In this document: positions 35,101 through 36,701 of the stretch, piece after piece
Position numbering within the stretch: the first letter of the stretch is position 1
Layout: the number at the start of each line of letters is the position of its first letter
Source of the DNA: Parietichytrium sp. I65-24A
Lineage: Eukaryota; Sar; Bigyra; Thraustochytrida; Thraustochytriidae
DNA: 64,000 nt
Assembly: GCA_012862575.1 (NCBI GenBank)
Contig: BLSF01000020.1
Span: 186,001 to 250,000 of the forward strand
Reading direction: 5' to 3'
Made by a program: the position numbers and the translations under genes
The notes under the pieces: model-generated
Databases searched by the model: none
Told to the model about the DNA's origin: nothing
The model's input: only the letters and a program-made list of their open reading frames with translations

Positions 35101-36701
35101 CTAGTCTGATCCAGTGAACCTAAAGGCAAGCCCGGAGGAAATAATGAATTGATAACGGCGTTCATGCTCTCTAATTGCGAGAGGCATGGGTTTCCTCTCG
35201 ATCAATTCGAATCCAAGAGGTTTCATGAATTCTATGATAACCTCGTCTGAACCAATCTGACTCATCTCTCCAGCCGTGGACGATAATGTTGGCAGCATCC
35301 AATTTTCTCGAGGGGTAAAGTCCTCTGACCAGGAGTAGGGCGACACAAGAACAACAACCCCGTCCCGCTGCATTAATTTCGGCAAAGACTTTAGGACTGC
35401 CCTCGGGTCCGGCAAGCGGCACAGAAGGTTTGCGAGCAAAACCCCATCGAAAGGTCCATTTAGCGCATCAACAGAAGGCAAGTCGCAGGCGTCTCCAACG
35501 ATGAAATCGATTCGGGCTCTGTCGACTCCATCATCCAATACAACAGGTATCGGTTCAGACTTGTGATCGCCGCTCGTGGGAACCCGGAATGTGATTGGAG
35601 GTGAGTGAGCGGACCGATCCTGCACTTGCTTGGCCATGGCAATGAAGGAGCAAGAGTAGTCGATCCCTTTCACAAAGCTAAACTTCTTGCTCAGCTCAAA
35701 GCACGCCCCCCCAACCGCGCACCCAATGTCGAGCGCTTTCGTGCTTGCGCGCCTGTCGCCCAATCTTGAGTTGCGCGACGCGACAAGATCACAAAGCCAA
35801 GCGGCGCAACGCTTGGGAAATTCGTGCAAACTGTCCGGAATAAGACTTGACACTGTGAAGGTAGCGTTGGCTTTTGTTTGCCCAAAGTGTAACGCAAGAT
35901 ACTGGTCCACGGAGTCGATACTCTCATACACTGGTGACATTGTGTCATGGTCTTCTTCAACAATCAGGTCTGCATCGATCCCAAGGCTTTCGGAAATTGA
36001 TGCAGTTGAAGAGCTCAGGTCCAGGTCTAAGGTAAATTCTTCAAATGCCTCAACGTAAGCAATTTGGCTGAAACCTAGTTTTGATTTGAAGAGCTCTAGC
36101 GACGCGACATTAGAATCCCCAATCTTGGCTACAATGCGGTTGACGGCCAGCTTTTGCTTTGCATACCTCAGAAGCAGGCTGACGGCCTCTTGTGCGATTC
36201 CCTTTCGCCTTGCGTCTTGTTCTGCGATCATAACCTCTATCTCCGCACAGTTGGGATTCTCGTCATCGTTGAAGAACAGGTTGACGTCTCCAATCATACC
36301 TGTCAAAGCTCTCTGACCGTCAGTACTAAATCGTGACTAAACACCAGAAATTTCGTGCGTGCTTCTGTCTTTTCACGTACGATCGATCATTGTGGAGTCC
36401 ACCTGCTCATCTCGGGAAGCACGAAGCACGATAAAAGTGCACTTTCGTGAATCGTCGCGCCACGAAGCTTGCATTTCAAACTCCTCGGACAGACTCAAGG
36501 GCTCTGACGCCGTGCTTTCTGCGCCAAACATCGGCAATAAAACAACGGTCAGCTCGCAAAGAACAGCAAAAGGCCAAACAAGAACCTACCAAGCAGAGCT
36601 GGATCCTGCATCCACTCATGGTACTTTGGGACGTGGCACCTCCGGTACGGAACGAGCGCACATTTTTCTCCGCGCAAACGGGTGTTCCAATTTTCGCGCA
36701 T
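35101..36701 (-). CDS. Fusion: NAT9-type N-acetyltransferase + OvoA C-terminal-type (4-mercaptohistidine N1) methyltransferase
   Basis: Exons are 36701-36590, 36518-36381 and 36299-35101 (introns 71 and 81 bases, donors GTAGGT and GTACGT), giving 482 residues. The N-terminal half is a complete NAT9-like GNAT domain: [57 protein letters not shown] with the acetyl-CoA loop RRKGIAQEA, and AKIGDSN. A linker follows to about residue 205. The C-terminal half matches the methyltransferase domain that ends ovothiol synthase Ovo[23 protein letters not shown] (SAM binding, about residue 272), [37 protein letters not shown] and RRYQF. No DinB or sulfoxide-synthase domain is present. NAT9 acetylates protein N-termini or tubulin in animals; the OvoA domain methylates mercaptohistidine. 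What links the two here is unknown. Confidence 0.87.

Follow-up and report, generated by a model that had tools for sequence, protein, structure and literature searches.

A gene of the thraustochytrid Parietichytrium sp. I65-24A that joins a NAT9-type acetyltransferase to an OvoA-type methyltransferase, in a genome with a separate OvoA

The closest described relatives of the gene reported here fall into three groups of enzymes. The first is NAT9. Porcine Nat9 acetylates Met-Leu and Met-Arg peptides and has the acetyl-CoA motif RGKGFG, an instance of a required RXXGXG pattern (PMC9927549). According to the domain limits given for the pig protein, the animal form has ~212 residues and is free of a methyltransferase (PMC9927549). 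Fly NAT9 (Mnat9) acetylates tubulin N-termini in vitro, and its neuroprotective effect is described as one for which acetylation is not needed (PMC10382493). The second group comprises the C-terminal module of OvoA (OvoC, e.g. PDB 8khq), the methyltransferase that completes the antioxidant ovothiol, and its standalone bacterial counterparts OvoM (Sulfuricurvum, PDB 9bxl-9bxn) and OvsM (Marinimicrobium, PDB 9bxh, 9bxj and 9bxk), which are 5-thiohistidine and 5-selenohistidine N-methyltransferases, respectively. The third is 5THNAT, a bacterial GNAT encoded by a separate gene beside OvoA, which converts 5-thiohistidine to N-alpha-acetyl-5-thiohistidine. It has been likened to a human amino-terminal acetyltransferase (3TFY, 23% identity), and its acceptor pocket is described as containing Tyr116, Glu119, Arg153 and Trp155 (PMC12631010). 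NAT9 and standalone OvoM-type enzymes are already known, and what is new here is their combination in one gene. A NAT9-OvoA fusion was not found in the open-licence literature, among the matches listed.

The window, by which we mean the whole 64,000-nucleotide stretch analysed, covers positions 186,001-250,000 of contig BLSF01000020.1 of Parietichytrium sp. I65-24A, and the genome searched amounts to 42.5 Mb in 172 contigs. The fusion gene occupies positions 36701-35101 of the minus strand, and spliced translation of its three exons yields a product of 482 residues. Exon 1 (36590-36701, start codon 36701-36699) and exon 2 (36381-36518) flank an intron of 71 nt (36519-36589, GTAGGT...GCAG), and a second intron of 81 nt (36300-36380, GTACGT...ACAG) precedes exon 3 (35101-36299, stop codon 35103-35101 included). 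The splice model was inferred from the sequence; both introns have GT-AG ends, and retention of either leads to stops soon after entry. Exon 3 is a single open frame that encodes the latter half of the acetyltransferase, a linker of 29 residues (179-207, at 35929-36015) that contains Met204, and the entire methyltransferase. Since the domain junction sits within this one open exon, the fusion is independent of the splice call, and a splicing artefact was rejected. The initial annotation had proposed a GNAT domain and an OvoA-type methyltransferase in one gene with these exons and introns, and this structure is borne out by the 482-residue spliced product.

Coding statistics agree across the junction. 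Codon log-odds were trained on 2,205 codons that came from five further frames of this genome. Scored one by one, all three parts (acetyltransferase, linker and methyltransferase) reached their best value in the actual frame; for the linker it was 0.044, against -0.255 and -0.261 in the other frames. The remaining two frames of exon 3 contain 19 and 16 stops, and none of 2,000 base shuffles gave an open stretch as long as that of exon 3. The openness of the linker alone is weak evidence, since a stretch of 30 codons is open in 25% of base shuffles. Two separate genes may share the one frame. However, the domains are just 29 residues apart, and the spliced message contains 14 ATG triplets (counted over all frames and with the start codon) before the internal Met204. 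What we find is a single open gene with two intact domains, in a genome that also contains a separate OvoA. The neighbours are ordinary eukaryotic genes, both on the plus strand, namely one for a casein kinase II beta subunit (frame 34070-34738) and one for a CCCH zinc-finger protein that also matches RRM (frame 37272-38411). About ten copies of CATT lie at 36791-36830, directly upstream of the fusion gene and before the gene that starts near 37272.

The front half of the protein, residues 1-178 (36016-36701, interrupted by both introns), is a GNAT domain that we take to be of the NAT9 type, the models used naming only the GNAT superfamily. Acetyltransf_3 matches residues 16-160 with 61.1 bits, and PDB 7ovu matches residues 7-179 with 167 bits (E 3.2e-48). 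The earlier assignment to GNAT proteins stands, with NAT9 as the probable type. What likens the protein to fly, pig and human NAT9 is a putatively NAT9-type GNAT domain near 7ovu that carries a form of the acetyl-CoA motif. This motif reads RRKGIA (residues 114-119, at 36193-36210), compared with RGKGFG in the porcine protein. Relative to RXXGXG it keeps the first two anchor residues and has alanine instead of the final glycine. Alanine is tolerated at the final position of GNAT acetyl-CoA motifs. When the genome was searched with the front half at E up to 10, its own three exons were the only sequences returned and a second NAT9 was not detected. As far as this search goes, the fused copy appears to be the only NAT9 in the genome. 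The front half had no match among the plasmids.

The back half, residues 208-482 (35104-35928), is an OvoA-C-terminal/OvoM-type methyltransferase domain by profile, tree, structure model and fold match. Its best NCBIfam model is ovoA_Cterm (TIGR04345), which covers residues 208-472 with 147.9-149.5 bits, the next model reaching 25.6. The best profile is not that of a generic methyltransferase, an outcome that the initial annotation had named as a refutation, although the score is below the curated cut-off of 170 bits for this equivalog domain. Among ten bacterial modules used as a yardstick, which were picked from long or distant branches, scores ranged from 139.4 to 295.3 bits and nine exceeded the cut-off; the gene of the only module below it (139.4 bits) is annotated as ovoA. 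The solved relatives OvoA (8khq), OvoM (9bxl) and OvsM (9bxh) match with 94-96 bits. The predicted structure of the methyltransferase, built on 60 sequences, has a pLDDT of 92 and aligns with OvoM, OvsM and OvoA at Z-scores of 29.3-30.8 (over 235-240 residues for OvoM and OvsM; 30.4 for OvoC). CARNMT1 comes next at 19.5, and the others range from ~17 downward. A Foldseek search likewise returned eleven OvoA, OvoM and OvsM chains with E-values from 4e-23 to 7e-22, followed by a jump to 2e-9. Three conserved stretches stand out by their columns: a motif of 10 residues (272-281, at 35707-35736; module columns A66-G75), which from its position in the fold is presumably the SAM-binding region, a motif of 15 residues (403-417, at 35299-35343; columns 197-211), and IREHERRYQ (residues 459-467, at 35149-35175; columns 253-261). 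Judged by its conserved positions and the predicted fold, the domain very probably belongs to the OvoA C-terminal/OvoM family in the wide sense.

In contrast to OvoA, the bifunctional ovothiol synthase, the fusion has a NAT9-type GNAT domain in front of the methyltransferase and is devoid of the sulfoxide-synthase part. Neither a sulfoxide-synthase nor a DinB match was obtained in the 482 residues at E <= 0.001, in agreement with the earlier reading of the sequence, and TIGR04344 and FGE-sulfatase also had no match within the fusion protein.

The methyltransferase groups with the C-terminal module of an OvoA, and not with the standalone bacterial rows sampled. Bacterial relatives for this comparison were the best 80 of at least 441 confirmed candidates from a scan of genome contigs. 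Among these best 80 loci, 34 have more than 400 in-frame residues upstream of the module, 40 have a short upstream frame, and 5 are cut or unclear. The 40 OvoM-like loci with a short upstream frame lie within L023-L090, and many are from Verrucomicrobiota. A first scan of genome contigs had yielded no confirmed relative, and the same was true of viral contigs searched with the queries P0001 and A1. The full tree comprises 85 rows, namely the window, the OvoA of the same genome, 79 of the 80 genome-contig loci (L048 was left out for length) and 4 plasmid loci; 9bxl and 9bxh are absent from it. Here the fused module is the sister of the organism's own OvoA module (100/98), the bootstrap of this full tree not having settled. 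The sister placement recurs (98/95) in a reduced tree of 34 rows, from which the long rows P_Strepto, L024 and L033 had been omitted beforehand. With this reduced tree, an origin from a bacterial standalone OvoM was rejected (p-AU 0.0017 against 13 standalone rows). The two modules share 42% identity, and the end branch of the fused module is 1.34, compared with 0.48 for the OvoA module. The simplest history would be that the OvoA module was duplicated, joined to NAT9 and then changed faster; in both trees the eukaryotic OvoA rows are limited to this genome.

Of the 53 columns that are conserved in at least 85% of the 83 prokaryotic rows, the fused module and the organism's own OvoA module keep 46 each. 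At the 95% level the fused module keeps 33/36 and shares places six to nine from the bottom among the 85 rows; the OvoA module keeps 32/36 and shares places three to five. The median row is at 97%. There are 14 positions at which the organism's own OvoA goes with 60% or more of the bacterial rows and the fused module differs, among them Y16F, E120S, G190D and K259R (numbered within the module, whose position 1 is residue 207). The loss of Glu120 was considered as a sign of a new substrate and set aside, since four bacterial rows that have a long frame upstream also carry serine or threonine at this position. We read the fused module as a probable working enzyme with a substrate close to that of the family, some change being allowed. 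The substrate may have changed, since the branch is long and only 33 of the 36 positions are kept at the 95% level.

These observations bear on two alternatives. The fusion could be recent or neutral, the module being tolerated baggage that is weakly active or inactive. The gene is known from this genome only and the branch is long, as such a history would have it, yet at 42% identity one would expect neither the open frame nor the conserved residues of an unused copy to have survived, and both are intact; we regard this explanation as very improbable. The other alternative, raised by the initial annotation, is that the methyltransferase was repurposed to a protein, for instance a histidine or the N-terminus of a NAT9 target, and that the fusion is a two-step protein modifier. 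The long branch and the attachment to a protein acetyltransferase are in its favour, as are the nearest fold beyond OvoA and OvoM, that of the carnosine N-methyltransferase CARNMT1, and the in vitro acetylation of tubulin N-termini by fly NAT9. Against it, the conserved OvoA/OvoM positions are kept as well as in the organism's own OvoA, the model adjoins OvoM and OvsM, and the genome already encodes a DREV methyltransferase (contig C86, L003:982-1908; Pfam 103.1 bits, OvoA C-terminal model weak at 30.7 bits), which we take to be of the METTL9 type. METTL9 methylates protein histidine. A protein target is therefore not favoured, and we consider it unlikely, even with the latitude for a changed substrate that the long branch leaves.

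A full-length OvoA, for which the initial annotation had suggested to look elsewhere in the genome, is present on contig C2 (533627-535939; L001, L091). It is a single frame of 894 residues that scores 607.5 bits with TIGR04344 and 192.5 bits with TIGR04345, and it contains HERIHLE, in agreement with the HX3HXE motif reported for OvoA (PMC4768315). The N-terminus of this OvoA is basic and rich in serine and by composition resembles a mitochondrial presequence. The net charge of the first 55 residues is +7, with the first methionine of the frame assumed to be the start, compared with -2 in the fusion protein. A tagged diatom OvoA was mitochondrial, and a presequence was predicted for it (PMC9890322). 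The OvoA of Parietichytrium is thus probably mitochondrial and the fusion protein probably outside mitochondria, and to judge by composition, the two methyltransferases may occupy different places in the cell.

Some other genes were recorded in the same searches. A protein of the formylglycine-generating-enzyme type is encoded on contig C72 (L092:1147-2694; FGE-sulfatase 210.2 bits). An open frame of 5,583 residues on contig C66 (8562-22499) is matched several times over by the PfaA model, in the manner of a polyketide or fatty-acid synthase; matches of this model in the genome reach up to 143.8 bits, and none is above its cut-off. A chlorophyll a/b-binding protein was not found in the genome search, and therefore the organism is probably not photosynthetic.

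In our best explanation, which in full has about an even chance of being correct, a duplicated OvoA module that is still fitted to a small molecule of the 5-thiohistidine type is carried by a housekeeping NAT9. Points against it are the TIGR04345 score below the cut-off, the long branch, the 14 positions at which the module departs from the organism's own OvoA and most bacterial rows, and the alanine at the end of the acetyl-CoA motif. The activity, substrate and location that we infer for the fusion protein would be as follows. A single polypeptide would contain two enzymes. The front half would keep the usual job of NAT9, as extrapolated from animals, and acetylate protein N-termini such as those of tubulin. 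The methyltransferase module of OvoA would have been copied and then attached, with a short linker in between, to the C-terminal end of NAT9. As the back half, it would use SAM to methylate a small substrate of the 5-thiohistidine type, most likely at the ring nitrogen of 5-thiohistidine. Without a presequence, the fusion would add to OvoA another ovothiol methyltransferase, placed in the cytosol or at whatever site NAT9 occupies. The acetyltransferase and methyltransferase activities would not need to share a substrate.

It is also conceivable that 5-thiohistidine or ovothiol is the substrate of both halves, of which one would methylate it and the other acetylate its amino group. The initial annotation had stated that no link between NAT9 and thiol-histidine methylation was known. 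NAT9 itself does not appear in the consulted portion of PMC12631010, but a published link between a GNAT and thiohistidine exists, as 5THNAT acetylates 5-thiohistidine and is encoded beside OvoA. The same source reports that 5THNAT does not accept ovothiol A, and it treats acetylation and methylation as fates that compete with each other (PMC12631010). Moreover, the front half is close to 7ovu, with 5THNAT known here by description only, and the NAT9 part had no match in the 3,048 frames taken from the 80 bacterial loci (phmmer, E up to 10; an insensitive single-query search with no positive control). Joint action on one small molecule is therefore quite unlikely in our estimate.

The methyltransferase that converts ovothiol A to ovothiols B and C is marked as unknown in PMC12631010, and therefore the module is a candidate for this amino-methylation step. 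A diverged paralogue alongside a complete OvoA in one genome would suit such a role. However, there is no evidence that the organism produces ovothiol B or C, and the ring-methyltransferase signature is kept, so that we doubt this assignment strongly. On a Streptomyces plasmid (L009:866-4036), an annotated ovoA has directly behind it another gene, for a class I SAM-dependent methyltransferase, which is a possible lead for the ovothiol B/C step.

A further possibility would be a dedicated thiohistidine-tailoring enzyme, in which NAT9 has gained thiohistidine acetylation and works with the tethered methyltransferase. It could make an acetylated or amino-methylated ovothiol, or couple the balance of SAM and acetyl-CoA to ovothiol and tubulin acetylation. 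The chances of this scenario appear slim.

The gene presents a diverged OvoA-type methyltransferase that is attached to a protein acetyltransferase, in a genome with a complete OvoA; the protein is small, and the model of its methyltransferase is confident. If the protein were a thiohistidine-tailoring enzyme, there would be a small-molecule role for NAT9 and a route to N-acylated thiohistidine in eukaryotes. If the module instead acts on proteins, it would show a route by which an ovothiol enzyme can become a protein methyltransferase.
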